DNA of 49,748 nucleotides from a virus. Position 1 is the stretch's first letter, and each line of letters opens with the position of its first letter. The notes under the pieces were generated by a model. The model saw only the letters and a program-made list of their open reading frames with translations, was not told the origin of the DNA and made no database searches. The stretch is from positions 1-49,748 of IMG/VR virus record IMGVR_UViG_3300027522_000006; one strand, given 5' to 3'. Shown piece by piece: positions 845 to 43,537 of the stretch. Position numbers and translations under genes: made by a program.

Positions 845-1061
845 TGACCCACTCCGTTGTTTCTCTGATACCTTTGAAACCAATTAAGGTGGCACCAGTT
901 TCAGTGTTAAGTACAGTGGGAACACTCCGCACTCTATATTTAATAGCTGATGCAATGTCCTTAGCAATATCAACTTCTTCATAGTCCACTTCTGCATGGT
1001 TCAGTACAGTGCTCACTGCTTTACAGGGCATGCACCCTTCTGTGTAAAATTTTATAATCAT
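828..1061 (-). CDS. Thioredoxin/glutaredoxin-like redoxin (copy 1)
   Basis: A 77-residue thioredoxin-fold protein with the dithiol active site C10-M-P-C13 near the N-terminus and the expected cis-proline at P48 in the stretch SVPTV. At this length it is glutaredoxin/NrdH-sized rather than a full thioredoxin. It overlaps the start of nrdA by 17 bases, so the likely role is to re-reduce the phage ribonucleotide reductase. Unlike T7, which borrows host thioredoxin as polymerase processivity factor, nothing here shows a polymerase partner role. The second copy has CQPC in place of CMPC. The fold is secure; the partner is inferred from gene order. Confidence 0.85.
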   Translation of the reverse strand: MIIKFYTEGCMPCKAVSTVLNHAEVDYEEVDIAKDIASAIKYRVRSVPTVLNTETGATLIGFKGIRETTEWVNDNCS

Positions 1062-1070
1062 ATTTATTTC

Positions 1071-1301
1071 TCAGTCATACTTCTGGTGTTGGAGTTCAAG
1101 CCATAGCTCTGCGTAGTGGATTATCTTTTTAACATCAGATTCAAACTGGCCTTTGTGGGGAGCGCGAGTTGCGTACTTCACGATGTTGCCAGCGATGAAG
1201 TCCAGTTCATTCTTCATGATGTATTCGATAGGCTGGATGGGGTGAGTGTAGTGGTCACCACCTTCTTGGCGTTCAGTTCCTATATACGGGGTGGGTTCCA
1301 T
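1071..1301 (-). CDS. DUF3310 family protein (copy 1)
   Basis: A 76-residue protein matching the DUF3310 pattern: GGDHY near the N-terminus, then HPIQPIEYI, then NIVKYATRAPHKG and a C-terminal helix with a conserved IHYAEL. The family is common in phage nucleotide-metabolism regions and is sometimes annotated as nucleotide-kinase-like, but no activity has been established that I can cite. The start lies inside the end of the exonuclease gene (overlap 1280-1301). The position between exonuclease and redoxin/nrdA fits a role in nucleotide or DNA metabolism. Its close copy is at 41469-41711, with a longer N-terminus there. Confidence 0.8.
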   Translation of the reverse strand: MEPTPYIGTERQEGGDHYTHPIQPIEYIMKNELDFIAGNIVKYATRAPHKGQFESDVKKIIHYAELWLELQHQKYD

Positions 1302-2020
1302 AATGGGGGTTCCATGTTGTCAGGGTTGAGGTCTTCAGTACGGAGGATACGAGCACAGCGCGCTTGGACTAAGGCTTCTTCAAGACCTAGGCCAGCCTTC
1401 TCAAATGCAGCAAGAACATGAGGCCAATAGTCCAACTCAGCAGCATCAAGAATCTTCTCAGCTTTCACTGGTCCAACTTGGGGACAGCCTTTGTAGTTGT
1501 CAGAGGAATCACCTATCAGAACTTGATAGTAGAAGTAGCGGTCAGCCATAGGCAGGGTTACATGAACCACACCCCTGTCTTTGTGACGAGGGTTGTACAG
1601 GTGACAAGGCACACATAAGAAGTCTTTATCTTCAGATACAACGATTGTGTCTGTGTCAGCAGTAGCTGCAATGCCAATCAAGTCATCAGCTTCAAATGGT
1701 TCTAGTAACTCAGCATCGCCTTCAACAATCATCCACTGCTTCAACGCACCTAGAGTCATAGGCTTACGGGTATCTTTACGATTACCTTTGTAGGATTCAA
1801 GAATGTCGTAGCGGAAGTTCTCTTTGCCTGTCAGGAACAAGCGCATCTTAGTGCATCCTGTTGCCGTGGTTATGGCTTTTAATGCACGGTTGATGTGGCG
1901 TTGCCCATCCTCTTCAGATGCGTGGAGTGTCCACATATCGTGGTCCCATTTGGTAGGAACCTCAGTGGCTGCTGCTGCTTGGAATGCAAGGATGTCAGCA
2001 TCAATAAGTAGGGTCGTCAT
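1280..2020 (-). CDS. T7 gp6-like 5'-3' exonuclease / flap nuclease (copy 1)
   Basis: A 246-residue member of the FEN/5'-3' exonuclease family, like T7 gp6, which degrades host DNA and removes RNA primers. Visible metal-binding acidic residues are D7 and D9 at the N-terminus, the EADD cluster (E110, D112, D113), SEDKD (E130, D131, D133) and GDSSDN (D171, D174). A helix-hairpin-helix stretch with QVGPVKA follows at about 181-187. The length is close to the family norm (T7 about 300, cyanophages shorter). The start overlaps the end of the upstream membrane-protein gene by about 20 bases. It is clearly diverged from copy 2 (41672-42457, 261 aa), unlike its immediate neighbours. Confidence 0.92.
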   Translation of the reverse strand: MTTLLIDADILAFQAAAATEVPTKWDHDMWTLHASEEDGQRHINRALKAITTATGCTKMRLFLTGKENFRYDILESYKGNRKDTRKPMTLGALKQWMIVEGDAELLEPFEADDLIGIAATADTDTIVVSEDKDFLCVPCHLYNPRHKDRGVVHVTLPMADRYFYYQVLIGDSSDNYKGCPQVGPVKAEKILDAAELDYWPHVLAAFEKAGLGLEEALVQARCARILRTEDLNPDNMEPPLWNPPRI

Positions 2021-2192
2021 ATGATTCCTCTTCTTTAGAGTTACGTTCAGTGACTATGCGGATACCATGTTCAATAGCTGCAGAGGCTTCCATGTAATCT
2101 AGGTAGGCATTCATAGCAAAGCTAAAGGCTAAGGCTAGAGATACGACTACAAATCCTAGGCACACAAGTACCATCATTAATGTTTCAATCAT
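2001..2192 (-). CDS. Small single-pass membrane protein (copy 1)
   Basis: A 63-residue protein with one strongly hydrophobic segment at about residues 5-28 and a charged C-terminal tail containing an ITERNSKEE-like end. I do not recognise a family. It overlaps ThyX upstream by 8 bases and the exonuclease downstream by 20 bases, so it is translated within the same tight operon. The copy at 42438-42629 is almost identical, although the flanking exonuclease is diverged. That conservation argues that it is a real gene. A role at the inner membrane is possible; the function is unknown. Confidence 0.7.
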   Translation of the reverse strand: MIETLMMVLVCLGFVVVSLALAFSFAMNAYLDYMEASAAIEHGIRIVTERNSKEEESYDDPTY

Positions 2193-2826
2193 TTGTTAAA
2201 GCCTCCCAGCTTACTGGATATAAAGGACGGATAAGATTGTCCACTTCCCTAGCTAGCTCTTGTATTTCTACTTGAGCGTGAGGGTCAGTGCGTTGCTTAT
2301 AGAACCTAGCAAAGGACGCAACATTGCCTGTCCAATACCAAGACACCTCAGTACCTTGAGGCAACAAGAAACGTGCTTGTTCAGGACACATACCTCCAGC
2401 TATTGCTGTGTCATAGGACTCAAGGCACATGTTGTAGACAGTTTGGAAGTGTCTCTTCCAGTAGCGATTACCAACAACGTGCATAGGTCCACTACTGCCT
2501 TGCTTGGCTCCACCTGTGGGTCCCTTACGGAACTGGTCAGGGGTGTAGAAGCTAGGCTTTCCACTGATATACCTGCGCGACTCTTCGTTCTCTGAGAACC
2601 CAACCTTGTGCTTAAAGCATTGGGTGCGGATAGGCACGGGCGCTTTCATGCGGAGGGTCACAGAGGTGTGAGCAAAGGGAGTCCAGTGATTGTGTGTGGC
2701 AAGGTAGTTGATTAAACCTGTGTCATTCTCTGCATTAAACTCAGTAGCATCTGCGGCAAAGGAAACACGCGCAGCACGTACAACAGAGGCATCAGTACCC
2801 ATGTGGTCTATGTACTCAGCCTTCAT
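2185..2826 (-). CDS. thyX: Flavin-dependent thymidylate synthase ThyX (copy 1)
   Basis: A 213-residue ThyX, which makes dTMP from dUMP using FAD/NADPH and methylene-tetrahydrofolate. The signature is KHKVGFSENEESRRY at residues 72-86. Cellular enzymes carry RHR at the first three positions, so this phage version has lysines in place of both arginines, while the downstream SxNExSxRY part is intact. The length is typical for phage ThyX. The gene starts 4 bases inside the preceding small gene and runs into the membrane-protein gene. Together with nrdA, nrdB and the redoxin it forms a dNTP supply module. Confidence 0.93.
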   Translation of the reverse strand: MKAEYIDHMGTDASVVRAARVSFAADATEFNAENDTGLINYLATHNHWTPFAHTSVTLRMKAPVPIRTQCFKHKVGFSENEESRRYISGKPSFYTPDQFRKGPTGGAKQGSSGPMHVVGNRYWKRHFQTVYNMCLESYDTAIAGGMCPEQARFLLPQGTEVSWYWTGNVASFARFYKQRTDPHAQVEIQELAREVDNLIRPLYPVSWEALTND

Positions 2827-3113
2827 ACTTCACATTCCTGTTCATACATTTGATTAGCTTCAGAATAGCCTTCCCAATCACAGACACCGCAGGCATCAAG
2901 ACATGCAAGAAGATGGCTGTCTCTCTCTAGAGAAGCAAAGTAAGTGGCGCTGGTGGTCACCTTCCTGCAGTCGATATTAGTCACCTCAGTATGGGGACTG
3001 ACCCCTAGCTTCACTCGGTCCTTGAACAGCCCATCCCAGCCATCACGGTAGGCATCACTAACGACACCTGTTTGAATAGGGAGTCCAGTGGCTTCACTTA
3101 TTGCTTTGGTCAT
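2823..3113 (-). CDS. Conserved hypothetical protein with paired cysteines (copy 1)
   Basis: A protein of about 96 residues; I place the start at the ATG giving MTKAISEATG, preceded by a GAAAG-type ribosome binding site, rather than seven codons upstream. No family is recognised. Two blocks are shared with the copy at 43270-43536: GWDGLFKDRVKLGVSPHTEV in the middle, and LDACGVCDWxGYSEA near the C-terminus. The middle between them is not conserved. The C-x-x-C pair could bind metal, but only two more cysteines are nearby. It lies between the polymerase-side gene and thyX with overlaps at both ends. Confidence 0.7.
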   Translation of the reverse strand: MTKAISEATGLPIQTGVVSDAYRDGWDGLFKDRVKLGVSPHTEVTNIDCRKVTTSATYFASLERDSHLLACLDACGVCDWEGYSEANQMYEQECEV

Positions 3114-3339
3114 TATCTTTCTCTTCTGTTTCACGTAGACGGATTAGACCCATGACAGTGATATGCCAGCGTCTTCCAAATTGTTCAGTGCCTACGGTTC
3201 GTGTTGATATGAAACCTTCACACGCACACACAGCGATAAGCTCAGCATTAGTTCTGGCAAAGTCACTGCGTGTGGTGAAGGGGTTTGTATAGGCGTGGCT
3301 AATCACCTTAGTGAGTGTCAGCCCAGTTATCTCCGACAT
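3094..3339 (-). CDS. Conserved small protein, possible winged-helix (copy 1)
   Basis: About 81 residues from the ATG giving MSEITGL, which has a GGAG site six bases upstream; a longer form starting at 3351 is less likely. The core TTRSDFARTNAE, CEGFIST and WHITVMGLIRLRE is conserved in the second copy (43538-43759). The pattern looks like a compact winged-helix: a helix pair followed by a strand and a terminal recognition segment. That is a guess from composition only. The start overlaps the last 32 bases of the DNA polymerase gene, so translation is probably coupled to it. Confidence 0.65.
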   Translation of the reverse strand: MSEITGLTLTKVISHAYTNPFTTRSDFARTNAELIAVCACEGFISTRTVGTEQFGRRWHITVMGLIRLRETEEKDNDQSNK

Positions 3340-5107
3340 TGAATTCTCCATCTAATGGACATTTAAAGTTGAATATACTGGTGACTTCTCTGATTGAAGC
3401 GACAGCTATATCACCTACTTGCTGGGCTATGTCTTCTCTGCAGGCTACTTGGATTTCATCGTGTACCCATGCTGACATAGCAAAGTCTCCATCCCATCCA
3501 TGCTTAAATCCTGCAGCTTCCATTGCCTCAACAAACTGGACCAGCCACTGCTTACAAATTATTCCTCCAGCACTTTGGAGCAACGCATTTAATGCTGAGT
3601 GCTCACTTCGAATATGGATACGTCTTCGGTCTAACCCGTAGATGAACCCACGCTTTGAACTTGACATCACCTGCTCACGTAACTTGGCAAGTGCAGGGGT
3701 CATTGCTAAGAATCTTTCCTTAGCGGCCTTGCCCATCTTGCGTCCACCACCCAATAGCTCACCTACTAACTGGTCACCTCCACCATATAAATAACAATAG
3801 ATGAAGCGTTTTGCAGCATCGCGTGAAGCTAAGCCTGCAGCGATTTGGTTAGCAGTGTGGATGTCACCTTCAAGTAACTCCTTCACGTAAGCACCACCAT
3901 CATATGCAGCCATGAAATGCCCTAAGCATCTCAACTCGAGGCCAGAAGCGTCAGCGCCCATGAGCTTCCATCCTTTAGGGACGGTGAATAGCTCACGACA
4001 CTCACGTCCATATGGAGCAGACAGTGAGGGCACTTGGGCGATGTTGGGGTAGGCATGTGTAGCACGCCCAGTTACAGCACCATTGGGATTGACTGAACCG
4101 TGAATCTTTCCATCCACTACGTTCTTCATCCAACCTTGAGAACCATCAGATAGCTGAGCGATACGCTTCTGCAGCATGAAGTATTCAGCCATGACCTTAG
4201 CTTCAGGGAAGGGGAGTCCTGTCAGCGTAGATTCATCGACCTTAGCTTGCCCACCTTTGGTGAACTCTTTAGGTTTCCAACCACGTACCTTGGTTAGTCG
4301 GTCTGCAATGTGAGCACGGGATGATGGATTGAACTCCATGATTTTGATGGGCGTGTAGGCACAGTCCTTGACTATTGATGCACGGGTCACATCTTTATAA
4401 TTGACTGTGCGACAAGGCACTTTGATTGAATCAGCAATTATCCAAGGTGCGAACAATCCATCTAGCTTAGAACGAATGTCAGTGCGCGTAGCAGAGAGGT
4501 CAAGGTACAGAACACCAGCCTTCTCTTCATCAAACACAAAGCCATTGCGCTCTTGCTTCGCCATAATCCAAGCCACTTGGTGTTCAAGTTCTAAGGCTTG
4601 TTCACTATAGGCCTGTTTAATTATTGCTTCATACAAAACAGCAGTGACTTCAACGTCTTGCTGGCAGTACTCAAGCATCTCTTCAGAGTAAACATCCCAC
4701 GCTGCTTCTTGGTCTGCGTAGTCTCCTTTGAGAATACCTAAGCGGTAACCCCATGCCTTAAGTGAGTGGGACCCATACATCTTACGAGGGAACTCTGGCA
4801 TGTTGACGAGCCTTTCTGCATCGTCTTCTTTAATGCTGGACCAAACCAATCTGACACACACCAACGTGTCTAGGACTGAGGGTGATTTGAAGTTAGGGTG
4901 TAACTTTTTGATAGCAGGAACATCAAACTTAATTCCGTTGTGAGCTATTAACAACTCAGCAGATTCAAGTAGCTTGATGCCCTTGCCTATCTCGTTAGGT
5001 CTAAAGGAATGAACCTCACCTGTGTCAACATCTTTAGCTACGATGCAATGGATACATGTGAGTTCATCCAGCAGTCCGTTCGTTTCAATATCGACAATGA
5101 GTTTCAT
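3308..5107 (-). CDS. T7-like family A DNA polymerase with 3'-5' exonuclease (copy 1)
   Basis: A 599-residue replicative polymerase. The N-terminal proofreading domain starts with DIETNG (D6, E8). Polymerase motif A is GADASGLELR with D386. Motif B is AKRFIYCYLYGG with K433 and Y437. Motif C is WVHDE with D550. Y437 occupies the position of T7 Y526 (E. coli Pol I F762). It is about 100 residues shorter than T7 gp5 (704), similar to cyanophage enzymes, so the thioredoxin-binding insertion is probably missing. It lies between primase-helicase and the small downstream genes, as expected for the replisome. Copy 2 (43731-45524) keeps all motifs but is clearly diverged. Confidence 0.96.
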   Translation of the reverse strand: MKLIVDIETNGLLDELTCIHCIVAKDVDTGEVHSFRPNEIGKGIKLLESAELLIAHNGIKFDVPAIKKLHPNFKSPSVLDTLVCVRLVWSSIKEDDAERLVNMPEFPRKMYGSHSLKAWGYRLGILKGDYADQEAAWDVYSEEMLEYCQQDVEVTAVLYEAIIKQAYSEQALELEHQVAWIMAKQERNGFVFDEEKAGVLYLDLSATRTDIRSKLDGLFAPWIIADSIKVPCRTVNYKDVTRASIVKDCAYTPIKIMEFNPSSRAHIADRLTKVRGWKPKEFTKGGQAKVDESTLTGLPFPEAKVMAEYFMLQKRIAQLSDGSQGWMKNVVDGKIHGSVNPNGAVTGRATHAYPNIAQVPSLSAPYGRECRELFTVPKGWKLMGADASGLELRCLGHFMAAYDGGAYVKELLEGDIHTANQIAAGLASRDAAKRFIYCYLYGGGDQLVGELLGGGRKMGKAAKERFLAMTPALAKLREQVMSSSKRGFIYGLDRRRIHIRSEHSALNALLQSAGGIICKQWLVQFVEAMEAAGFKHGWDGDFAMSAWVHDEIQVACREDIAQQVGDIAVASIREVTSIFNFKCPLDGEFNVGDNWADTH

Positions 5108-5119
5108 ACTTATTTCTCT

Positions 5120-5362
5120 CTAGCTAACTATAAAGGTGGCACGGAATCCTTTGACTTCATCAGCACGTTCAGAGCACAGACGGTGAAGGCTTGCCGTTGA
5201 TAGACCAGTGGCTCTGCTTGCAGCAGCTAGGTTCTTATAAACCTTGGCACCATCATCCTCACCAATCACCACAACCTTGCGATGAAAGGGATGGTGGACT
5301 GCATGGGTCTGCTCAGATGGAGCTTTTGTTGGGGTGGTCTTCTTGCGGAATGGGTTAAACAT
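5120..5362 (-). CDS. NUMOD1-like DNA-binding protein, possible remnant of a homing endonuclease (copy 1)
   Basis: An 80-residue protein. Its C-terminal half (VYKNLAAASRATGLSTASLH, then an RL-C motif and KGFRATF) resembles the NUMOD1-type helix-turn-helix found at the C-terminus of phage homing endonucleases. The same end occurs in the 168-residue endonuclease at the equivalent locus of copy 2 (45527-46033), in the form KGFKAEF. The leader GGTAACTCAA before the ATG is identical in both copies. No nuclease motif is present here. It may be a free-standing DNA-binding domain or what remains after loss of a nuclease domain. The N-terminus is basic and proline-containing. Confidence 0.6.
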   Translation of the reverse strand: MFNPFRKKTTPTKAPSEQTHAVHHPFHRKVVVIGEDDGAKVYKNLAAASRATGLSTASLHRLCSERADEVKGFRATFIVS

Positions 5363-5375
5363 TTGAGTTACCTAT

Positions 5376-7025
5376 TTAGAAAGCTGCGTTCACATCATGA
5401 AGAGGGGCTGTGTCAAACACAGTCTGCTCATAGAGATGCCCAGTTTCTTGATTGTAGTTAAGTGGAATTGTCATTCCCGTGGATTGCCCTGTGTATCTAT
5501 CTTTCAGGACACGGAATGTAGTTGTCTGTCTTTCTTTAATGTCTTCAGCTTGTTGGTTACGCTCCATGCCAAACATGAAGTGACACCAGAAACCGATAGC
5601 TCGACTGCCTTTGAAGTGTCTGATTGACACACGACCACCCTCTTCATGAGGTTTGCCTTCAGGTGTAGCGAGGTGAGATACCATTGTGATGATGATGCCT
5701 AGACGCTTAGAAATTTTAGCTACGTCAGAGGTGATGCGTTCCAATTCGATACGCTCATCAGTACCCTGCCCTGTGGCTAGTGCAGTGAGGTGGTCGATGT
5801 AGAACAGACGGATACCATCAGCGTGGTACATGTACTCAATGTTAGCTTTGACAACATCCCACTCACAGACCCCAAAGGAATCGTAGAGGCGAATCATGTC
5901 TGACTCTTCAAGAGTATTAATGGCTTCAACACGCTGTTCTTCTGTCCAATCACCATCAGGGATATGGAACATCTTGCCTGCATGCTTGCCTGCTAAACGG
6001 ATGGCAGTCTCAACTGGCATTTGCTCTAGGAAGAACACACCAACCTTCTCCTTCAACACTTGCATATCGTAGATGATTTGCTGTGTCATGAAGTCAGTCT
6101 TGCCTACACCAGTACCTGCACCTAGACAATAGACTTCACCGTACCTACGTCCATAGGTCTTACGGTTGAGAGTCTCAAGGAACCAAGGCTTGCCCCACTC
6201 GACAGGTTTGTCTAGCGCAGAGCGAATGTCCTTGAGGCTTACGATACCATCAGGTCTGTACGTCTTAGCGTTCCAGATTGCGTCCATGATTAGACGATGT
6301 TTGCCTGCTAGTAATGCTTCGTTAGCATCCTTGAATCCGTTGATGTTACCTATCTTTACCTTGCCTGCTTCAAACAGTGGAGCACACGCTTTCGCTGCCT
6401 CTTCTCCTGCCTCATCTCCATCCATAAGGAGGATAATTTCTTGGAATTCTTTGAAGTAACTCATGTTGGCAGCAATGGATTTAGCTGCACCTGCTGCACC
6501 ATTTGGCACAGAGATTACAGGCCACTTATTATCTTGGACCTGAGACACAGCCATCGCATCAAGCGCGCCTTCGCAAATTACTATCTTCTTACCTGATGAA
6601 AATAATTGAGTGCCAAACATTGGCATCTTGCTGAAGTCACCGAGGATGGGGAAGGACCCCTTGTCTTGGTAACGTAGTTGTTGTGCGACCAGCTTACCTT
6701 CAGTGTTGTGGAGTGGTGTGATGTGAACAGGTTGTCCATTGTGTGAGCCTACTTTGTATCCATAGTGACGGGCTGTCTCTTCAGAGATACCTCTATGTCG
6801 CAGTGAACGAATCTCACCATCAATTAAGTTACTTGCCATGCGTGTACTACTCCTAACAGTTTGAATATTCTCCCCCTCTGCAGGCCACTCCATGTGGTTG
6901 CAGGTAAGGGAGAAGCAGTAAGCTCTGCCAGATGCATAGCGTGCTAAGTTGTCGCGTGAGTTACAGCTAGGGCAACTCTCACGTCCAATCATCGGGCTAT
7001 CATCTTGGTCACGGGGCTTACTCAT
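5376..7025 (-). CDS. T7 gp4-like primase-helicase (copy 1)
   Basis: A 549-residue fused primase and replicative helicase (T7 gp4 is 566). The zinc-binding domain has C18, C21, C37 and C42. The TOPRIM primase core shows E152 in CEGALDA and DGDEAG at 202-207. The helicase Walker A, GAGTGVGKT, is at 302-310, and the later YIDHLTAL and MVSHLATP stretches are the usual Walker B and downstream motifs. It starts just after the small HTH gene and is probably expressed from the phage promoter near 7300. The second copy, at 46046-47671, has the same architecture. Confidence 0.96.
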   Translation of the reverse strand: MSKPRDQDDSPMIGRESCPSCNSRDNLARYASGRAYCFSLTCNHMEWPAEGENIQTVRSSTRMASNLIDGEIRSLRHRGISEETARHYGYKVGSHNGQPVHITPLHNTEGKLVAQQLRYQDKGSFPILGDFSKMPMFGTQLFSSGKKIVICEGALDAMAVSQVQDNKWPVISVPNGAAGAAKSIAANMSYFKEFQEIILLMDGDEAGEEAAKACAPLFEAGKVKIGNINGFKDANEALLAGKHRLIMDAIWNAKTYRPDGIVSLKDIRSALDKPVEWGKPWFLETLNRKTYGRRYGEVYCLGAGTGVGKTDFMTQQIIYDMQVLKEKVGVFFLEQMPVETAIRLAGKHAGKMFHIPDGDWTEEQRVEAINTLEESDMIRLYDSFGVCEWDVVKANIEYMYHADGIRLFYIDHLTALATGQGTDERIELERITSDVAKISKRLGIIITMVSHLATPEGKPHEEGGRVSIRHFKGSRAIGFWCHFMFGMERNQQAEDIKERQTTTFRVLKDRYTGQSTGMTIPLNYNQETGHLYEQTVFDTAPLHDVNAAF

Positions 7026-7027
7026 GG

Positions 7028-7222
7028 TTACCAGCCTAAGCGGTATTCAGAGTAGGTAGCCCGTGCGCCATCTTTTCGCTCAGCCGTGATTTCAAACCCC
7101 TGCTTCTTAAGGAGGTGGACCACAGCAGCTAGTCGTGTGATTCCATACAATCCAATGGCTTCGATAGAGGTAAGCTTGCGGTTGTTGGTTAGGTGGTTAA
7201 GTACAGTTTGTGATTGAGTCAT
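7028..7222 (-). CDS. Small helix-turn-helix protein (HTH_39-like) (copy 1)
   Basis: About 64 residues from MTQSQTVL; this start has GAGAG eight bases upstream, a feature conserved in copy 2, so I prefer it to the ATG at 7249. The sequence TVLNHLTNNRKLTSIEA followed by LYGITRLAAVVHLLKKQG is the typical helix-turn-helix pattern of small phage HTH_39-type proteins. It is the first gene after the phage promoter near 7300 and precedes primase-helicase by 2 bases. A DNA-binding role is likely; the target is unknown. The N-terminal half is near-identical in the copy at 47674-47871, while the C-terminus differs. Confidence 0.75.
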   Translation of the reverse strand: MTQSQTVLNHLTNNRKLTSIEAIGLYGITRLAAVVHLLKKQGFEITAERKDGARATYSEYRLGW

Positions 7223-7263
7223 AATTTTTCTCTCGATAGTTGAGTTCATATATAGGAATGATG

Positions 7264-7279
7264 GCCCCCCGAAGAGGGC
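7264..7279 (-). promoter_or_regulatory. UUCG-loop hairpin in the primase-helicase leader
   Basis: On the minus strand this reads GCCCTC-TTCG-GGGGGC, a six-pair stem (one U-G) closed by a stable UUCG tetraloop. It lies about 15-20 bases downstream of the phage promoter core and has no U tract. It is more likely a 5' stabilising or processing stem than a terminator. A comparable stem follows the promoter in copy 2 (47911-47926). Confidence 0.6.
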
Positions 7280-7293
7280 ATACGGTTTACTTA

Positions 7294-7314
7294 CCGTGAT
7301 GGTGCAACCTTTGC
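7294..7314 (-). promoter_or_regulatory. Phage RNAP promoter, class GGTTGCAC (HTH/primase-helicase)
   Basis: The minus strand reads AGCAAAGGTTGCACCATCAC. The core GGTTGCAC(T/C)AT recurs at 8991, 11709, 17690 and 37803, always in a gap or gene end before a gene group and always pointing the same way as the genes. TTGCACTAT resembles the T7 promoter core ACTCACTATA. Initiation probably occurs a few bases after the core. Confidence 0.75.
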
Positions 7315-7323
7315 TCTAGCCCT

Positions 7324-7746
7324 TTAGCTGAGCCACTCTCGTACATCAAACGATGGACAGTCTTTCTGCACATCAGGAAGGTCCCGATGTCCTAGAACTT
7401 CAGCGGTTGGGTAAGTGAGTTGGAGGGTTGTTACTACATCAGCAAGGGTGCTGAACTGTTCAGGTGTGAAGTTGTTCTCAGATACTTTGACATCATCTTC
7501 AGTAACGCCACCGACTAATGCGATGCCAATACTTTTGTGATTAAAGCCCCGTGCGTGAGCGCCAACAGCGTCTATTGGCCTGCCCTCTTCTAGGGTCCCA
7601 TCACGTTTAATAATTATCTGATAACCACAACCAAGGAATCCGCGATGGCGATGCCATGCGTCAACCTCAGTGAAGCCTATGTCCATTGAGGGTTTTGTTG
7701 CTGTGCAGTGGATTACTATGTAGTCCGTACTGCTTCTGTTAGCCAT
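7324..7746 (-). CDS. N-acetylmuramoyl-L-alanine amidase, T7 lysozyme (gp3.5)-like (copy 1)
   Basis: A 140-residue zinc amidase close to T7 lysozyme, which cuts the amide bond in peptidoglycan and in T7 also binds and inhibits the phage RNA polymerase. Zinc ligands are H13 (VIHCTA), H120 (LGHRDLP) and C130 (KDCPSF); Y42 and K128 match T7 Y46 and K128. It overlaps the endonuclease I gene by about 30 bases, the T7 order of gp3 then gp3.5. Since no other endolysin is visible, it is the likely lysis enzyme, working with the holin at 19643. RNAP control is inferred from the family only. Confidence 0.94.
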   Translation of the reverse strand: MANRSSTDYIVIHCTATKPSMDIGFTEVDAWHRHRGFLGCGYQIIIKRDGTLEEGRPIDAVGAHARGFNHKSIGIALVGGVTEDDVKVSENNFTPEQFSTLADVVTTLQLTYPTAEVLGHRDLPDVQKDCPSFDVREWLS

Positions 7747-8138
7747 GAATGAGGGATACTCCCCTTAGCGAATTGGAACCCATGCTTCTCACACCACATA
7801 GCGTATGTAGTTTTGGAAGCCTTTGAGATTCTTTGGTTTGGATTGCTGAACACAAAACGAATGTCCAGATGAGGGTGTTGGTTTTTAATAAGTAGATGCT
7901 TCTGCCTATCGTCAGTCATGAACCTCCCTTTCAACTCTATAATCATGGTTCCGATTACAAAGTCAGGGGTGTACTTGGATTGACGTGCAGGGCGTGTGTA
8001 TTCAATCTTCAATTCTTCATAGGTGAAGGGGATGCCTTGAGTTGTTAGCTCGTCAGCAACCCTCTTCTCTAATCCAGAACGGAACCCATACTTAAGACCA
8101 ACGAAGTAATCTTTAGAACGGGATGTCGTCATACTCAC
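7716..8138 (-). CDS. T7 gp3-like endonuclease I (Holliday junction resolvase) (copy 1)
   Basis: A 140-residue homologue of T7 endonuclease I, a dimeric resolvase that cuts branched DNA and degrades host DNA. Catalytic residues are visible as E24 (FRSGLE), D59 (YTPDF) and E68 with K70 (IELKG). The C-terminal part, DDRQKHLLIKNQHPHLDIRF, is almost the T7 sequence. The start at 8138 lies inside the end of the SSB gene; an ATG at 8132 would give a slightly shorter form. The 3' end overlaps the amidase gene. The copy at 48363-48770 keeps the same motifs. Confidence 0.94.
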   Translation of the reverse strand: MSMTTSRSKDYFVGLKYGFRSGLEKRVADELTTQGIPFTYEELKIEYTRPARQSKYTPDFVIGTMIIELKGRFMTDDRQKHLLIKNQHPHLDIRFVFSNPNQRISKASKTTYAMWCEKHGFQFAKGSIPHSWLTEAVRTT

Positions 8139-8760
8139 CTGCTTCTTCTAGCTCTTTATTGAGAGACTGTTCAGAGGTAGCGCCATGCGGTGCAGGTGGT
8201 GTGTACTCGAAACCATCTTCAACATCGAAGCCAGCAACAGCGGCTGAAGAAACAGCAGGTGCAGAGGTTGCATCCAATGCTTCAATAAGCTGAACAGTCT
8301 TCATGCGTAGTGAGACACCAGCACCAACCAGACCTGTGTAGTAGGTGATAGGTTGGAAGCCAATACGTACACGACTGCCATTCCACGTTGGGACCTCAGT
8401 AGTGATAGGCTTCTTCTGTGAATCAATCACGATAGGCTTCTGAGTGAAGTCACCATCACGGGCATTAACCAATGCCTTAAGCTTGAACTTGAACGACACA
8501 TCACCTGTCTCTTCATCAATGATGTAAGGTGGGTTGGTTTTGATTTTAGCCTTGGGCTTGCCTGTCTCTTCCACAGCGTCAGCAATAGCCTTCTCCATGA
8601 ACGCATCAAGCTGAGCCATCAGAGGCTGAGCCTGTGCATTCTCAATGTTCAAGGTACAACCAAACTCCCCATTATCTGAGAATTTATAATCTGGGGTGAA
8701 GCACTTAAGCCATTCAGTGCGGCCTTCAGGTGTTACGATTTGAGGTATTTTGTTTGACAT
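8113..8760 (-). CDS. T7 gp2.5-like single-stranded DNA-binding protein (copy 1)
   Basis: About 215 residues from the ATG giving MSNKIPQIV, with AGGA nine bases before; the in-frame ATG at 8784 has no better site. The sequence fits the gp2.5-like family: an N-terminal TPEGRTEW, a long beta-rich core, and a low-complexity then acidic C-terminus ending EYDDIPF, the typical SSB tail used for contacts with polymerase and helicase. T7 gp2.5 has 232 residues. The position between RNAP and endonuclease I matches T7. It is among the most diverged genes between the two copies (48751-49386). Confidence 0.88.
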   Translation of the reverse strand: MSNKIPQIVTPEGRTEWLKCFTPDYKFSDNGEFGCTLNIENAQAQPLMAQLDAFMEKAIADAVEETGKPKAKIKTNPPYIIDEETGDVSFKFKLKALVNARDGDFTQKPIVIDSQKKPITTEVPTWNGSRVRIGFQPITYYTGLVGAGVSLRMKTVQLIEALDATSAPAVSSAAVAGFDVEDGFEYTPPAPHGATSEQSLNKELEEAGEYDDIPF

Positions 8761-8990: not shown

Positions 8991-9012
8991 GTGATAGTGC
9001 AACCTTTGCTAA
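8991..9012 (-). promoter_or_regulatory. Phage RNAP promoter, class GGTTGCAC (SSB operon)
   Basis: The minus strand reads AGCAAAGGTTGCACTATCAC, in the gap between the RNAP stop (9047) and the SSB operon. It shares AGCAAAGGTTGCAC with the promoter near 7300. T7 likewise has promoters just after gene 1. Confidence 0.78.
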
Positions 9013-11629: not shown

Positions 11630-11708
11630 TTGAACTTCCTTTCTGTTGTGTTTTGTTTCAATGCTGAAACCTTTTAACCACAGCTATACGCTCTGGCATG
11701 ACCCTTTG

Positions 11709-11749
11709 GGCCATAGTGCAACCTTTGATATTAAGCTTTTACTAATATA
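11709..11749 (-). promoter_or_regulatory. Phage RNAP promoter directly upstream of RNAP
   Basis: The minus strand carries TATCAAAGGTTGCACTATGG, preceded by an AT-rich TATTAGTAAAAGCTTAA. The whole stretch of about 35 bases is repeated with one change at 17697-17731, after the terminase gene. Transcription from here runs into the RNAP gene 80 bases away, which would make a positive feedback loop. A GGCCC/GGGTC stem follows the core. Confidence 0.8.
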
Positions 11750-11751
11750 CG

Positions 11752-11781
11752 ATTTGTCCTCATTTGGACCTCATTTGTCCT
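11752..11781. promoter_or_regulatory. Putative integrase arm-type sites, RNAP side (three phased ATTTG repeats)
   Basis: ATTTG occurs at 11752, 11762 and 11773, as ATTTGTCCT, CATTTGGACCT and CATTTGTCCT, spaced 10 and 11 bases (one helical turn). The same repeats occur five times on the other side of the tRNA-like core at 12021-12073. This arrangement is what arm-type binding sites of tyrosine integrases look like. Binding itself is inferred. Confidence 0.6.
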
Positions 11782-11793
11782 ACTTATTGTGCT

Positions 11794-11806
11794 CCTTAAT
11801 TTGCTC
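11794..11806. repeat. 13-base direct repeat flanking the attP terminator (partner 11955-11967)
   Basis: CCTTAATTTGCTC occurs here and again at 11955-11967, immediately next to the tRNA-derived core. The two copies lie 161 bases apart, on either side of the terminator at 11840-11876. It may be a further binding site or a relic of an att exchange. Confidence 0.55.
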
Positions 11807-11839
11807 TGAATTAGTTTCAGTACTGGTAAACGGTAGCCA

Positions 11840-11876
11840 AAGAAAGGCCACACCACCTGTATCAGTGATGTAGCCT
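11840..11876 (-). terminator. Strong intrinsic terminator between attP core and RNAP
   Basis: On the minus strand AGGCTACATCAC, an 8-base loop and GTGGTGTGGCCT form a continuous 12-pair stem (two G-U pairs), followed by TTCTTT. It lies 55 bases downstream of the tRNA 3' end. In a lysogen it would stop the host tRNA transcript before the RNAP gene; in the free phage it would reduce early host-polymerase readthrough into RNAP. Confidence 0.75.
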
Positions 11877-11930
11877 AGGAATATATCTTAGTGAATTCTT
11901 TGCGCCTGTCCCTAAAAGAGACTGTGAAAA

Positions 11931-11955
11931 TGGCGCGCCCGAGAGGATTCGAACC
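11931..11955 (-). other. Putative attP core: 3' end of a tRNA gene (tRNA-Arg-like)
   Basis: The minus strand begins GGTTCGAATCC and ends CGGGCGCGCCA, which is the T-loop, 3' T-stem, acceptor strand, discriminator and CCA of a tRNA. The acceptor strand CGGGCGC would pair with GCGCCCG, the 5' end of gammaproteobacterial tRNA-Arg(CCG). The preceding sequence does not fold as a tRNA, so only the 3' end is present. That is the usual attP core for tyrosine integrases that target tRNA genes and restore the tRNA on insertion. It lies 40 bases beyond the integrase stop, as in integrase-carrying marine podoviruses. Core length and the exact tRNA need a host genome. Confidence 0.82.
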
Positions 11956-11994
11956 CTTAATTTGCTCGACCTTCTCATAGAATTCGTAGATATA

Positions 11995-13131
11995 TCAGGC
12001 ACTTAGTGCTTGCTGAATACCATTTGGTAACTCATTTGGAGACAATTTGTCCTGCCCTTTGTCCATCATTTGGAGGGCTGTTATGCCTGACTGCAAGGCA
12101 CTGTCTGTGACTTTTGCATAACGTGCTGTTTGTGTGATGTTGCTGTGTCCCATTAGCTGCTGGACAATCTTAAGGTTAACGTCTGCCTCAACTAAACGAG
12201 TGGCAAAGGTGTGGCGCATGCCGTACCAAACTTCCTCGTCTGTCCAGTTCATCACAGGCCTTACTAGCTCATTCCAGAAGCGCGTACAGTGCCACTTATA
12301 GTCGAGCTTAGCAAACGGCTGGTGGTCAGCAGTCTGCCACTGTGAACGCTTCATAAGGATGCGCTTTACTCGGTCAGTCATTGGGATATCCCGTGACTTC
12401 TTGGTCTTGCTATAAGCCTTCGGTATGCGTATCACTGGGCTTCCGTTTACATCGTGCTTAATCCAATCACAATGGAAGCTGTGAGCTTCACGCCAAGGCC
12501 TCATGCCAGTGTCAAATAACACTACAATGAAATCCACAAGCAGGTCATTGATAGATGAACAATGGAAGTCCATATCACCTGCAAGGCCTATCAGGTTGCT
12601 CTCTTCCACAGGGCTGTAGTAGCGCATGCGTGAGTTGTCCCCGATGCTTTCCCATTGGATGATGGGTGGGTGCTTCAAGCGTCCTGTGTGGGCCATGTGC
12701 TTAAGCATTGAGGATAGGCAGGTTAGCTTGTTGTTGATGGTTTTGGGCTTGTTACCCTTGTTACGCAAATGCCTGATGTAAGAATCAATCATCATTGTAT
12801 CAACATCTTCTAAGCGGTGTGCTTTTTCCTGCTTAATAAAGAACTGCTCAATCGACTTCCAGTACTGAACCACTTTGGTCTGGTAGTCGTTGCTCTGATA
12901 GGCCCACTTGTGCTCCCACGTTTCATCATAGGCTAGCTGCAGGGTTAGACTTGTGCCGTGGCGTAACTGCCCACCGACAGGCCTAAGACCCCGTGCCATA
13001 TCTGCAATGGCCTGCGCTTCAATAGCGACTGCCTCTGCATGTAGGTCTAGGCCTTTGACAAAATCAACGAAACGGTGACCGTCACGCATTACTTTTATCT
13101 GCCAGCCTGTTGCTTTTTGATAGATAGACAT
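11995..13131 (-). CDS. int: Tyrosine-type site-specific integrase
   Basis: A 378-residue phage integrase. The catalytic set is visible: R211 in TGMRPWRE, a lysine in the SKTKKSRD turn (K242-K245), R306 in YGMRHTFATRL (the first position of the HxxR box is Y303), H329 in LMGHS, and the nucleophile Y338 in TARYAK. A core-binding SAM-like domain spans about 70-155, and an arm-binding N-terminus lies before it. The 3' end of the gene overlaps five ATTTG repeats that may be its own arm sites, and the attP core follows 40 bases later. It lies between the MarR-like gene and RNAP, so it is expressed with the early genes. Confidence 0.95.
   Translation of the reverse strand: MSIYQKATGWQIKVMRDGHRFVDFVKGLDLHAEAVAIEAQAIADMARGLRPVGGQLRHGTSLTLQLAYDETWEHKWAYQSNDYQTKVVQYWKSIEQFFIKQEKAHRLEDVDTMMIDSYIRHLRNKGNKPKTINNKLTCLSSMLKHMAHTGRLKHPPIIQWESIGDNSRMRYYSPVEESNLIGLAGDMDFHCSSINDLLVDFIVVLFDTGMRPWREAHSFHCDWIKHDVNGSPVIRIPKAYSKTKKSRDIPMTDRVKRILMKRSQWQTADHQPFAKLDYKWHCTRFWNELVRPVMNWTDEEVWYGMRHTFATRLVEADVNLKIVQQLMGHSNITQTARYAKVTDSALQSGITALQMMDKGQDKLSPNELPNGIQQALSA
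12021..12073. promoter_or_regulatory. Putative integrase arm-type sites, integrase side (five phased repeats)
   Basis: ATTTG (once CTTTG) occurs at 12022, 12034, 12045, 12057 and 12068, in the forms CATTTGG and ATTTGTCC, spaced 12, 11, 12 and 11 bases. They lie inside the last codons of the integrase gene, 66 bases from the core. The regular helical spacing and the matching array across the core suggest cooperative integrase binding on one DNA face. Confidence 0.6.
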
Positions 13132-13142: not shown

Positions 13143-13496
13143 CTAATTAAAATGAGAAGTAAGTTGCTTGGCAAAAGCTTTGCCCTTCTCGGTAAGTTGG
13201 ACATAACGCACTCGCCTGTCTAAAGGGTCGGTTGTCAGTTCAACAAGGTTTAGCGGTTCGACTTTACGCCTTGCCACTGTGATGTCAGATAGTGCAGCTA
13301 CACACCTGCTAACATTTGAACCTGTTGTGTTCATAGCATTGCAAATCTCGCGCCCTGTCACTGAGCCACGTCTAGCAACTACTATAAATACACGCATCTG
13401 CATGGCTGTCATTTCGACATATAATTCGTTGAAATTTGCCAATGCCCCTGCAAGACCTGCGAGTGTTTTCTGTTCAATTGTATCCATACTATTCAC
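13143..13496 (-). CDS. MarR-like winged-helix regulator
   Basis: A 117-residue protein with a MarR-type layout: an N-terminal helix, MQMRVFIVVARRGSVTGREI as the start of the winged helix, a recognition helix around TTGSNVSRCVAALSD, and the wing LTTDPLDRRVRYVQLTEKG followed by a C-terminal helix. The DxRxR wing motif is classic MarR. It lies 12 bases upstream of the integrase start in the same direction, and AT-rich gene-poor DNA lies upstream. It is the best candidate for a lysogeny regulator, since no CI-like repressor is seen in the window. Its target and any ligand are unknown. Confidence 0.82.
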   Translation of the reverse strand: MNSMDTIEQKTLAGLAGALANFNELYVEMTAMQMRVFIVVARRGSVTGREICNAMNTTGSNVSRCVAALSDITVARRKVEPLNLVELTTDPLDRRVRYVQLTEKGKAFAKQLTSHFN

Positions 13497-17033: not shown

Positions 17034-17061
17034 ACTATAGTGAATGGTTTGAGGATTGCAA
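17034..17061 (-). promoter_or_regulatory. Candidate host sigma70-type early promoter
   Basis: On the minus strand TTGCAA (17056-17061) and TATAGT (17034-17039) are separated by 16 bases, close to the TTGACA/TATAAT consensus. It lies about 70 bases before the first early gene. A second -35-like TTGACA is at 17090-17095 without a good -10. This is where T7-like phages carry their strong early host promoters. Confidence 0.55.
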
Positions 17062-17106
17062 CTTATTTCGATGCTGAACTGCAAATAAGTGTCAAATAAA
17101 CCTAAT

Positions 17107-17276
17107 TCAATAGGGAATCAATAGGATGTTGGTAGATGTTGGTGGATGTTTGGAGTTCAGTTGGAGTTCAATAGGTTGTCAATAGGTTGTTCAATGAGAA
17201 AAACAAAAACGGAAAAGTGTAAGTAGATGGAGAAAACAGACAGCACCATTATAGATAGTCAATAGGACCTCAATAG
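17107..17276. repeat. Phased TCAATAG heptamer array
   Basis: TCAATAG occurs at 17107, 17118, 17168, 17179, 17259 and 17270, with a variant TCAATGA at 17191. Within each pair the spacing is exactly 11 bases. T7 has arrays of a different heptamer (CCTAAAG) next to its terminal repeats, so this may be the functional counterpart near the packaging ends. Confidence 0.7.
17125..17153. repeat. Three 10-base GATGTTGGT-type tandem repeats
   Basis: GATGTTGGT, AGATGTTGGT and GGATGTTTGG follow each other at a 10-base period, between two TCAATAG pairs. A protein-binding site or replication slippage are both possible. Confidence 0.65.
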
Positions 17277-17689: not shown

Positions 17690-17732
17690 TCCCCCTTAGT
17701 GCAACCTTTGATATTAAGTTTTTACTAATATA
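17690..17732 (-). promoter_or_regulatory. Phage RNAP promoter at the genome end (T7 phi-OR-like)
   Basis: The minus strand reads TATCAAAGGTTGCACTAAGG, with upstream AT-rich TATTAGTAAAAACTTAA. It is nearly the same as the promoter upstream of RNAP (11709-11749). It lies just after the terminase stop and points into the gene-free genome end. T7 phi-OR has this position and serves replication and concatemer processing. Confidence 0.75.
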
Positions 17733-17746: not shown

Positions 17747-19408
17747 TTACATCCACGTCACAGCCCTAGGTTTCTGTCCTACAGCTTGGTCCATGAACTT
17801 CTCAATCTCTCTAGAGAAAGCTTCAGCCTTCTGAATGCTAGCCATCGACTCACTATCAGCGTCCATCTGTTCAGTCCAGTAGGCAACAGCCATAGCCAGA
17901 GCATCCAAGCGGTCATCATGAATGATTGCGCCTCTATCTCTGGTAAGTCTGGTCATCTGGTAGAACAAACTGTAAGCAGGTTCAGGAGCACTGTCATAGT
18001 CTTCCTTAATGAGCTTCTCATCGACTACCAAACGGTGCTGCATCATCACAGGCTCAAGGGTATCTATCATCCTCAACTCCTTCTGAGTGGAGTGACGGAC
18101 TTCTTCTATAGCTACCTTGTGAATCCTATTGAGGATGGGTGTAAGTAACTTCACATACATACCATCACCGAAGTTAGACTCGACAATAATCATGTTCACA
18201 GACTCTTGCTTAGCGACTGTAGCTAGATTGGTCAACGTCTTGTCTGAGTAGCCTCCTGTGAAGCCACCTATACGAGTGACATACAGGTAACCATTCAACA
18301 TCTTCACAACAGCATAGGCTGTCTCATCCTTACCACGACCAGATGGGTCAATGGACATAACTGAACCTTGGAAGTCCAACATGTCATCAGACATCCACAT
18401 AGGACGATAGAACTTATCACCTGTGAATCCAACGATAGGGACATCTTGTACTATCTGAGAAGGTCCAGAGGCCCACGCTAGGTCAGCCCACCCCTTCTTA
18501 GGGTTCAATGCAGTCACCATCAAATCTGCTAGCTTCAGAGGGTACTTATCAGCATCTGCTAATGTAGTATCCAACATGAATTGTAGAGCAAATCCAGCCT
18601 TACCATAGGAAGCTTCACGCTCCATCAGGTCTTCTTTGGTGAATCGTTGAGGCTCAGTAGGAGCACCCCCCTGGTTCTCTCTACGGAGGTCTATGAAGGG
18701 AGCTAATCTGCCTTGATACATTGAGGCCTGTTTGTCTGTGGGGTACCTAGCAGGCCACACACGTATCTCATAGCCACGTTCTGGCAGGAGGTTGTATATG
18801 GACATCTCTGTCTGAGGTGTACCAAGATAAATCACACGACCATTAGGCTTTAGAACAGCATCAAACTCTTTGATAGCTTCAGATAACTTGTCTCTCATAG
18901 TCTGAGTAGCGGAGTTGTTTGTAACTTCCACGTCATCTGCGATTATTGTCTGAGCGCGTGAACCTGTAAGCTGACCTGAGATGCCCACTGACTTAACTGA
19001 AGGGGAATGGTCGGGTAAGCTAGGCCCAACATCAAAAGCAATGACAGAATCACGCTGACCATTTTTAGTTCTAAGGTGGGCGAGTAGTTCAATTTCATTG
19101 ATAAGTCTTTTAGTAAATGTTGAGAAGGCATCAGCACGTTCTTTGGAGGCTGATACAACGAGAATCTTGTGTTGAGGGTCACAATATAACAACCACACCA
19201 CATAGGCTGAAGTTATCCATGACTTACCGATGCCACGGAATGCTTCAATGACACAACGTCTAGGCCCCATTTGGAGGTAGCTTCCCATGTCGTACTGGAT
19301 TGGGGTAGGGTCTGGGAGATTCAGGGTGTGCCATACAATCCATAAGAATTTACGGAAGTCTTGTTTGATAGGGTCGTCTACTACCAACTGAGTGGAGGGT
19401 TGTGCCAT
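17747..19408 (-). CDS. Terminase large subunit, T7 gp19-like
   Basis: A 553-residue packaging motor with ATPase and nuclease. The ATPase A-motif is EAFRGIGKS at 55-63. The acidic Walker B is IIADDVE around D158-D159, and the coupling motif YLGTPQT is at 194-200. The nuclease domain has SIDPSGRGKDETAY with its metal-binding Asp, and IVESNFGDG and DDRLDALAMA further on. The length is close to T7 gp19 (586). The gene follows the small terminase by 7 bases and is last before the genome-end region, as in T7. Confidence 0.96.
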   Translation of the reverse strand: MAQPSTQLVVDDPIKQDFRKFLWIVWHTLNLPDPTPIQYDMGSYLQMGPRRCVIEAFRGIGKSWITSAYVVWLLYCDPQHKILVVSASKERADAFSTFTKRLINEIELLAHLRTKNGQRDSVIAFDVGPSLPDHSPSVKSVGISGQLTGSRAQTIIADDVEVTNNSATQTMRDKLSEAIKEFDAVLKPNGRVIYLGTPQTEMSIYNLLPERGYEIRVWPARYPTDKQASMYQGRLAPFIDLRRENQGGAPTEPQRFTKEDLMEREASYGKAGFALQFMLDTTLADADKYPLKLADLMVTALNPKKGWADLAWASGPSQIVQDVPIVGFTGDKFYRPMWMSDDMLDFQGSVMSIDPSGRGKDETAYAVVKMLNGYLYVTRIGGFTGGYSDKTLTNLATVAKQESVNMIIVESNFGDGMYVKLLTPILNRIHKVAIEEVRHSTQKELRMIDTLEPVMMQHRLVVDEKLIKEDYDSAPEPAYSLFYQMTRLTRDRGAIIHDDRLDALAMAVAYWTEQMDADSESMASIQKAEAFSREIEKFMDQAVGQKPRAVTWM

Positions 19409-21512: not shown

Positions 21513-22498
<986 letters not shown>

Positions 22499-22499
<1 letters not shown>

Positions 22500-23950
22500 T
22501 AGATTGTTACCTCTAGTTCACCGTTTGAATTGATTGAGAAGTCTTGGTCTGCGGCACTACCGTAATATTCGATAGTCAGCATTCCTGTGTTCGGGTCCAT
22601 GTAGAAGTTACCGAAGGCAAGTCCTAATGCAGTTGGACCGAGAGGACCAGCAGCACCCACAGGACCTGTAGGGCCTAATGGGCCTTGGTCACCATCGACA
22701 CCTTTGTTACCAAAGTCTCCTTGAATACCTTGAGGACCGTCTGGGCCTAGTGGTCCTGTAGAACCTGTTGGTCCTTGTGAGCCTGTAGCTCCTAATGGAC
22801 CGTCATCACCTACTGGGCCTTGAGAACCTGTCAGTCCCGTAGGACCTTGAGAACCTGTAGAACCAGTAGCACCAACAGGGCCTTCATTACCTACTGGGCC
22901 TTGAACACCTGTCTCTCCTGTAGGGCCTTGAGTACCTGTAGAACCAGTGGGTCCCATAGGACCGTCACCACCTTCAGGGCCTTGTGTACCTGTGATGCCA
23001 GTTGGGCCTTGTTGACCTGCCTCACCAGTTGGCCCAAGAGGACCATCATTACCTTCGGGGCCTTGAGAACCAGTTCCACCTGTCGCACCTGTAGGACCTT
23101 CATCACCAACAACACCTTGTATGCCTGTTGGGCCTACGGGTCCTGCTGTGCCACGGGGGCCTTGGCTACCTGTAACTCCTTGGTCACCTATAGCACCTGT
23201 GTTACCTAATTCACCCTGCTCACCACGGGGTCCTTCAGGTCCAATAACACCTTGAGGTCCAAATGGTCCTTGAGGGCCAGTGCCGCCTGTATCACCTGTT
23301 GCACCTATTGGTCCTTGAGGGCCTTCAGATAGTGAGAAGGTGAGTAAGCCTGTGTTTACATCATAGTCAACAGAGCCTGTGGCTCCATAAGGAAGCGAGG
23401 TCATTGCTGTGGTTAAGCCATATAGCTCATCACGTATGTGAACTACATCGGTGTGCTTGATTACAACGTCATTGTGCTTGGCTAACACTTCGCCATGCTT
23501 GGTTGTCACGTCTGGCATAACACCATCAGCGTAGGCTTTGGTCACCACATCAGTTGGTTCAACAGGAGGAGCTATGTTTGCTAGCCGTTTGTTTGCAGCA
23601 TCGAAAGCGCCTGCTGCATTTAATTGAATTGAGTTGTCTGCAGCGTCAAAAGCTTCTTGAGCTACATGGAATAACTGGTTGCTGTCTGTATCAAGAGAAG
23701 CTTCATTTAGAATTGAGCCATCTTGGAAATCAACAACGCGAAGTTCACGGTTGGTTGTTCTTCTAATGTCTATCACATCACCTATAGTAGGCGGTGTACT
23801 AAACTGTATGCGGCTTGAATCAAGCCATGTGAATGTACTAGCAACGCCATCAACAGATGCGCTCACTGTGTCCTGTGTCAGGTAAGTGAAGGTAACTATA
23901 TAAGACGAAGTAGTACCGTCACCTGTGTATTGCACAAAGGATAAGGCCAT
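22499..23950 (-). CDS. Tail fibre with T7 gp17-type N-terminus and collagen-like shaft
   Basis: A 483-residue fibre. The first 145 residues match the T7 tail-fibre anchor domain ([45 protein letters not shown], then [10 protein letters not shown]), which binds the tail. About residues 145-210 look helical. From about 215 to 435 the shaft is collagen-like Gly-X-Y (GPQGP, GPTG, GPVG), replacing the T7 triple beta shaft. The C-terminus, [17 protein letters not shown], is a short beta cap that repeats the motif [17 protein letters not shown] found just before the shaft. It follows the internal virion proteins after a terminator. Host recognition probably involves the downstream proteins too. Confidence 0.9.
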
Positions 23951-37802: not shown

Positions 37803-37823
37803 TCTTATGGTGCAACCTATGCT
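37803..37823 (-). promoter_or_regulatory. Phage RNAP promoter, class GGTTGCAC (virion operon)
   Basis: The minus strand reads AAGCATAGGTTGCACCATAAG. It overlaps the last codons of phoH and points to the virion genes. The core matches the promoters at 7294 and 8991, not the two AATTGCA promoters in copy 2. Confidence 0.75.
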
Positions 37824-38518: not shown

Positions 38519-38523
38519 GTTCT

Positions 38524-41243: not shown

Positions 41244-41460
41244 TGACCCACTCCGTTGTTTCTCTTATACCTTTCCACCCAATTAAGGTGGCTCCAGTTT
41301 CAGTGTTAAGTACAGTAGGTACACTACGCACTTTATATTTAATAGCTGAATCAATGTCCTTACCAATATCAACTTCTTCATAGTCCACTTCTGCATGGTT
41401 CAGTACAGTGCTAACTGCTTTACAAGGCTGACACCCTTCAATGTAAAATTTTATAATCAT
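41227..41460 (-). CDS. Thioredoxin/glutaredoxin-like redoxin (copy 2)
   Basis: A 77-residue redoxin, almost the same as that at 828-1061, but with the active site C10-Q-P-C13 and a few other changes (EGCQPC, GWKGIRE). The cis-proline P48 is kept. It overlaps nrdA by 17 bases. The probable role is to reduce the C-terminal CLSC pair of NrdA. The residue between the cysteines sets redox potential in this fold, so the CMPC/CQPC change could matter. Confidence 0.85.
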   Translation of the reverse strand: MIIKFYIEGCQPCKAVSTVLNHAEVDYEEVDIGKDIDSAIKYKVRSVPTVLNTETGATLIGWKGIRETTEWVNDNCS

Positions 41461-41468
41461 ATTATTTC

Positions 41469-43536: not shown

Positions 43537-43537
43537 A

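Follow-up and report, generated by a model that had tools for sequence, protein, structure and literature searches.

By gene content, the DNA studied here represents a temperate T7-like (Autographiviridae-type) phage of a kind already known, in which a MarR-like regulator and a tyrosine integrase are encoded directly upstream of the RNA polymerase (RNAP) gene. Because the attachment site falls between the integrase and RNAP genes, integration disconnects RNAP from the early and lysogeny operon, moving it to one end of the prophage. This displacement, together with a terminator-like hairpin, probably forms a second layer of control beneath MarR-type repression. The question of how a phage that relies on a self-amplifying T7-type polymerase could ever lie dormant has yet to be answered, and an integration step that shifts the polymerase away from the early operon is conserved across many bacterial prophages. 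The architecture itself is already known; its use as a regulatory layer is what we propose. A literature search that covered few subscription papers found no paper stating that RNAP displacement by integration is a regulatory step, which is weak evidence of novelty.

The stretch analyzed (hereafter the window) is a virus record of 49,748 bases whose genes lie almost entirely on the minus strand. Along that strand, the terminase large subunit is followed by a promoter copy, small early genes, the MarR-like gene, integrase, a tRNA 3′ end, a hairpin, a phage promoter, RNAP, and then the single-stranded DNA-binding protein (SSB) and replication genes (Table 1). With part of the open reading frames annotated, this is the unidirectional T7-like order that runs from early genes through RNAP, SSB and replication, and head-tail connector to terminase. 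The polymerase is 37.7% identical to that of Bordetella phage BB8. The original prediction, made from the same DNA, had correctly placed and ordered the elements from the early genes to RNAP; it did not include the MarR-like gene, the two palindromes near the promoter, the arm-like repeats, or the fact that the window is longer than the genome. Other phage-borne genes encode the thymidylate synthase ThyX (2185–2826), the large subunit of ribonucleotide reductase (39480–41243), and PhoH (37817–38536). Degenerate internal DNA repeats at 21557–23306, within the open reading frames at 21513–22499 and 22499–23950, are suggestive of a repetitive fibre-like protein.

Table 1. Locations of genes and of established or candidate control elements in the window.
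Feature	Position	Strand	Remarks
Phage promoter copy between amidase gene and 73-aa open reading frame	7297–7313	−	3 mismatches
Phage promoter copy downstream of RNAP	8992–9008	−	2 mismatches
T7-type single-subunit RNA polymerase, 860 aa	9047–11629	−	phrog_414, E=1.9e-212; PF00940, E=3e-95
Palindrome TTCAGCATTGAA, candidate operator just upstream of RNAP start codon	11657–11668	.	putative function
Phage promoter directly upstream of RNAP	11711–11749	−	39-nt match to 17694–17732; conserved in 9 relatives
Candidate integrase arm-type sites, RNAP side (P′ arm)	11752–11790	.	direct repeats CTCATTTGGA/ATTTGTCC in common with the integrase side, 272 bp apart
Palindrome CTGAAACTAATTCAG, candidate operator upstream of phage promoter	11806–11820	.	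putative function
Terminator-like hairpin, 13 pairs, T-rich tail	11845–11876	−	55 bp past tRNA 3′ end
attP core, tRNA-Arg 3′ end (T loop to CCA), 25 nt, GGTTCGAATCCTCTCGGGCGCGCCA	11931–11955	− (strand of RNAP)	invariant in 9 relatives
Tyrosine integrase, 378 aa	11995–13131	−	phrog_1, E=6e-41; PF00589, E=1.4e-14
Candidate integrase arm-type sites, integrase side (P arm)	12024–12072	.	overlaps integrase 3′ end; direct repeats in common with 11752–11790
MarR-like winged-helix regulator, 117 aa, directly upstream of integrase	13143–13496	−	PF12802, E=3e-7 (above cut-off); phrog_9665, E=1e-20
Putative early host promoter TTGCAA-16-TATAGT	17034–17079	−	operator-like palindrome copy TTCAGCATCGAA (17066–17079) just upstream
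Second phage promoter copy, between terminase and early genes	17694–17732	−	94.9% over 39 nt to 11711–11749
Terminase large subunit	17747–19408	−

The attP core is an intergenic segment that begins 39 bp past the integrase gene and is identical to a segment of a tRNA, here beside a gene for a tyrosine integrase; its predicted placement on the same strand as RNAP was confirmed. No tRNA or Rfam match was returned anywhere in the window, as expected for a partial tRNA. In an alignment of the integrase-RNAP gap from nine relatives (mean column identity 60%), the sole long invariant run spans 24 columns and coincides exactly with the tRNA piece. The next longest invariant run is of seven columns, and a run of 24 was reached in 0 of 20,000 shuffles, which excludes chance as the source of the conserved core. 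Of the 35 IMG/VR contigs that contain the exact 25-mer, 23 carry an integrase relative that ends 41–230 bp before the 25-mer and an RNAP relative that starts 263–1621 bp after it, although some are near-duplicates and the number of independent cases is therefore below 23. The other 12 comprise one in which a host tRNA replaces the integrase side, two cut by contig ends, eight with a complete tRNA-Arg and without these phage genes, and one that is unclassified.

Repeats on both sides of the core resemble integrase arm-type sites and may serve that function. A separate 13-nt exact repeat, CCTTAATTTGCTC, has one copy that abuts the core from the integrase side (11955–11967) and another at a distance of 161 bp toward RNAP (11794–11806), and is possibly also an integrase site. 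In some relatives (L204, positions 3095–3130; also L100 and L199), attP matches the host tRNA-Arg further upstream, with gagcggtcaga preceding the core, and the length of tRNA identity thus differs within the family.

The window exceeds one phage genome, which measures approximately 40.4 kb when contig L002 (IMGVR 3300027771_000307) and contig 3300027771_001122 are joined through a 115-bp overlap at their ends away from the core. Positions 40400–49124 repeat the middle genes, from SSB to ribonucleotide reductase, with 68–75% identity to positions 1–8513. In L002 the left-hand block joins the same late region, the two being identical for 667 bp or more. It follows that the record represents an assembly of mixed strains, a recombinant, or a tandem prophage. 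This excess length, 49.7 kb against 40.4 kb, raises the concern that the integrase-core-RNAP adjacency is itself an assembly product or the joint between tandem prophages rather than an attP. We consider this exceedingly improbable, given that the same adjacency is present in at least 22 other diverse contigs, including one that is 99.9% identical and comes from another assembly, as well as in isolated phages, and that the duplicated block lies at the opposite end of the window. Tandem prophages as the source of the joint were ruled out because the adjacency recurs in so many other contigs; the extra sequence corresponds to the second middle block at the right end.

The contig in which a host tRNA replaces the integrase side is L002, which is 99.99% identical to the window from position 11955 to position 1. 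Upstream of the core it carries CTACGAACCGAGCGGTCAGA, and this segment plus the core forms a 45-mer that aligns end to end with E. coli tRNA-Arg at 91% identity. Inspection of the 45-mer revealed the anticodon loop, with ACG, and a T stem without mispairs. L002 is a natural attL, wherein half of a host tRNA-Arg(ACG) is fused exactly at the core and is followed by the terminator, the phage promoter, and RNAP. Its breakpoint matches the exchange site that had been proposed for the integrase. Contig 3300027771_001122, which derives from the same sample and carries integrase with early and late genes, stops exactly at the core. L002 provides the single natural attL from the immediate family, for which no attR was found. 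A search of 369 gammaproteobacterial genomes for an exact match to the host half of the tRNA found none, and DNA searches of phage and plasmid records gave no matches.

An attachment site between integrase and RNAP predicts that the two genes will be permuted upon integration, such that integrase, located just upstream of RNAP in free phages, comes to lie far downstream of it in the prophage. A search of genome contigs with the RNAP as a single-sequence query yielded no matches, and a profile search built from an alignment located 54 T7-type RNAP loci in bacterial genomes. In 11 of 15 bacterial genomes examined, integrase indeed follows RNAP on the same strand at a distance of 33–41 kb, in agreement with the expectation that integrase and the early genes would be found about 40 kb away at the other prophage end. 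Repeats of 17–55 bp, present before RNAP and again after the far integrase, flank eight of the 11 permuted prophages, and seven of the eight are tRNA segments: Pseudomonas putida (55 bp), Stenotrophomonas maltophilia (50 bp), a Pseudomonadota metagenome-assembled genome (MAG; 49 bp), AG-914-F14 (27 bp), Rhodopseudomonas (24 bp), Parvibaculum (17 bp), and S. sepilia (17 bp). The 21-bp repeat of Endozoicomonas is outside this tRNA-assigned set. No convincing flanking repeat was found for two of the 11, the OTTO1 MAG and Xanthobacter. In Polynucleobacter, the contig opens with a tRNA-Leu that immediately precedes RNAP and breaks off shortly past integrase, and the far repeat is thus missing. The permuted order was absent or not resolvable in Xanthomonas, Devosia, Pseudomonas HMWF032, and a cyanobacterial MAG. 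Together with the attL of L002, the permuted order and its flanking repeats bear out the expectation that RNAP would come to lie at one prophage end, behind a restored tRNA and with a terminator between them.

No hairpin of this type in the 11.6–17.8 kb interval has a longer stem than the one that separates the core from RNAP, and its predicted folding energy is −20.6 kcal/mol (z of −5.4 relative to shuffles). Across seven sequences, 95.6% of pair cells are retained, with compensatory change. The covariation score of 0.322 compares with 0.198 for shuffled alignments, and was equaled in only 1 of 500 shuffles; slid versions of the structure are at most 54% paired. The tail, TTCTTT, is a modest T tract. 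A 12-pair terminator had been predicted at 11840–11876; a conserved hairpin is present there, with boundaries and pairing that we revise to those in Table 1. A hairpin with a T tract between core and RNAP was also present in five of nine bacterial prophages. The tRNA differs in its orientation relative to RNAP among prophages and is reversed in Stenotrophomonas, for example, so that an argument based on tRNA read-through does not apply to all relatives.

These comparisons bear on whether the location of attP has any regulatory meaning. An attP that adjoins the integrase gene is the usual arrangement in temperate phages. The site could therefore be regulatory-neutral, retained beside integrase by descent, with a hairpin that serves only to form the 3′ end of the restored tRNA correctly and with integration that is perhaps transient. 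The transient integration of cyanophages (PMC8776855) and the variable tRNA orientation fit such a reading. However, the integrase-att-RNAP order is common to pelagiphages, cyanophages, and the prophages of Pseudomonas, Stenotrophomonas, and rhizobia; terminators are found repeatedly between att and RNAP, both as T4 of phage LUZ100 and in bacterial prophages; and the presence of these prophages in sequenced genomes indicates that lysogeny is stable in many relatives. We therefore judge a neutral attP to be unlikely.

The 17-nt core of the phage promoter, CAAAGGTTGCACTATGG, occurs four times in the window where 0.19 occurrences are expected, and all four are intergenic and in the sense orientation. 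The copy between terminase and the early genes would allow RNAP to read the early genes, the MarR-like gene, and integrase, and in a prophage to continue past attR into the host. Two conserved palindromes flank the promoter that precedes RNAP. The TTCAG-N2-TTGAA palindrome is found in seven of seven family members (one with a single mismatch), 32–54 bp before the start of the RNAP match, and the CTGAA-N5-TTCAG palindrome is present exactly or with one mismatch in six of the seven. One relative (L009) has a further exact copy of the latter 327 bp before its MarR match. These palindromes are short and their number alone gives no clear genome-wide enrichment, so only their position and conservation are used here. 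No sigma70-like site was detected at the scan threshold on the RNAP strand between core and RNAP. The early host promoter in Table 1 is putative, as promoter-like matches are no more numerous than in shuffled sequence. The region at 17050–17160, which precedes the putative early promoter, is repeat-rich, and an ungapped comparison with a near-identical contig (L018) loses register there, which suggests a length difference between strains.

The MarR-like gene is also conserved. It precedes integrase in seven of seven family members compared, with 63–73% identity in the six relatives, and a MarR-type match lies directly before integrase in 10 of the 11 permuted bacterial prophages, several of these matches being below the Pfam cut-off yet matching phrog_9665. 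AG-914-F14 has an open reading frame at this position that gave no match. The MarR-like protein is the likeliest keeper of lysogeny and would work in trans, through the palindromes on either side of the phage promoter.

We propose that recombination by the integrase takes place between the 25-bp core and the same 25 bp at the 3′ end of the host tRNA-Arg(ACG). The tRNA is restored on the RNAP side, and this end of the prophage consists of the tRNA, the hairpin, the operator-like palindromes, the phage promoter, and RNAP. The early genes, the MarR-like gene, and integrase occupy the opposite end some 40 kb away, an order that is observed in the genomes described above. The hairpin lies between the tRNA transcript and RNAP, a geometry seen directly in attL, and would act there as a terminator. 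Since the phage promoter is not parted from RNAP, the self-activating loop could be set off again by any leak. Displacement and terminator would then constitute the second layer, situated beneath MarR-like repression. Excision would bring back the arrangement of the free phage, where transcripts from the early promoters could occasionally read through the hairpin and ignite RNAP, as has been proposed for LUZ100.

A stronger form of this idea holds that integration is the switch, wherein separating RNAP from the early promoters suffices for silence and no repressor is needed. The geometry of the natural attL and of the permuted prophages with their flanking repeats fits this view, as do a terminator that is conserved with covariation and the lack of a detectable host-type promoter between core and RNAP. 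Against it, the phage promoter is on the RNAP side of the core and remains with RNAP in L002, so that the autocatalytic loop survives integration. The hairpin precedes RNAP in both states, and integration thus swaps the upstream promoter, with that of the tRNA now placed in front of the same terminator as in the free phage. Moreover, the MarR-like gene and the flanking palindromes are retained nearly everywhere checked, and two cyanophages, P-SSP7 and S-TIP37, whose att lies past the integrase gene, integrate there without forming stable lysogens (PMC8776855); in P-SSP7 we find this att to precede RNAP. On these grounds, we regard integration without a repressor as very unlikely, and the earlier proposal of a rearrangement in place of a repressor is not supported. 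As to the regulatory role of integration, a second layer is plausible and a sole switch is unlikely.

An intermediate arrangement is possible, though we consider it doubtful. In this position-dependent lysogeny, silence would be established or stabilized only when RNAP is physically moved to a place behind a host tRNA and a terminator dedicated to this role, with MarR as a helper and not the sole keeper. Such a need would explain why att is kept between the lysogeny operon and RNAP. The genomes and junctions named here provide settings where the effect of the terminator, the operator, or the displacement could be measured.

One of the closest known systems is Pseudomonas phage LUZ100 (OP329100), which like the window carries a MarR-like gene, integrase, terminator T4, promoter phi1, and RNAP in the same order and on the same strand. 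It differs in that its RNAP is 33% identical, a tRNA-Leu gene lies upstream of integrase, and there is no tRNA-Arg core. In the available portion of the LUZ100 report, transcriptomics define a MarR-integrase operon, a terminator after integrase, and a phage promoter before RNAP, and the model given has MarR repressing the promoter before RNAP while read-through primes expression (PMC10134795). The same portion cites an earlier paper, elsewhere named Boeckman et al. 2022, for MarR sites flanking the RNAP promoter, states that no stable lysogens were obtained, and makes no use of the att position in its regulatory model (PMC10134795). By RNAP identity (37–38%), the closest cultured phages are Bordetella phage vB_BbrP_BB8 and Limnohabitans phage YIMV22061. 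Both encode integrase directly upstream of RNAP, with a tRNA-Leu between the two in YIMV22061, and their predicted att targets differ from that of the window phage.

Temperate T7-like phages that integrate at tRNA genes have been described previously (PMC8631192, PMC6811365). Pelagibacter phage HTVC019P, a Fonsibacter prophage, Rhizobium phage Pasto, and the Rhizobium vTRX32-1 group are T7-like and are temperate or integrated at tRNA-Leu (PMC6811365, PMC8631192). HTVC019P and Pasto resemble the window in having a regulator and then integrase upstream of RNAP; unlike the window, all four use tRNA-Leu rather than tRNA-Arg, and several carry or restore a whole tRNA-Leu. Cyanophage P-SSP7 likewise has a gene annotated as MarR-like, integrase, a tRNA-Leu piece, and RNAP in the same order, but its att carries the 5′ half of the tRNA. 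Given this and the reversed tRNA of some relatives, the logic of tRNA, terminator, and RNAP is not universal. Integration of P-SSP7 and S-TIP37 was demonstrated by PCR and requires integrase and attP in S-TIP37; it is transient, with no stable lysogeny, and the authors report no repressor homologue (PMC8776855).

A precedent for regulation by integration is mycobacteriophage BPs, whose attP is inside the repressor gene such that integration changes the repressor protein (PMC4557955). The window phage is similar to BPs in that the position of attP would let integration alter the state of a key gene for lysis or lysogeny. It does not share the defining feature of BPs, as its core is intergenic and outside the MarR-like gene, and it is RNAP that is moved instead.
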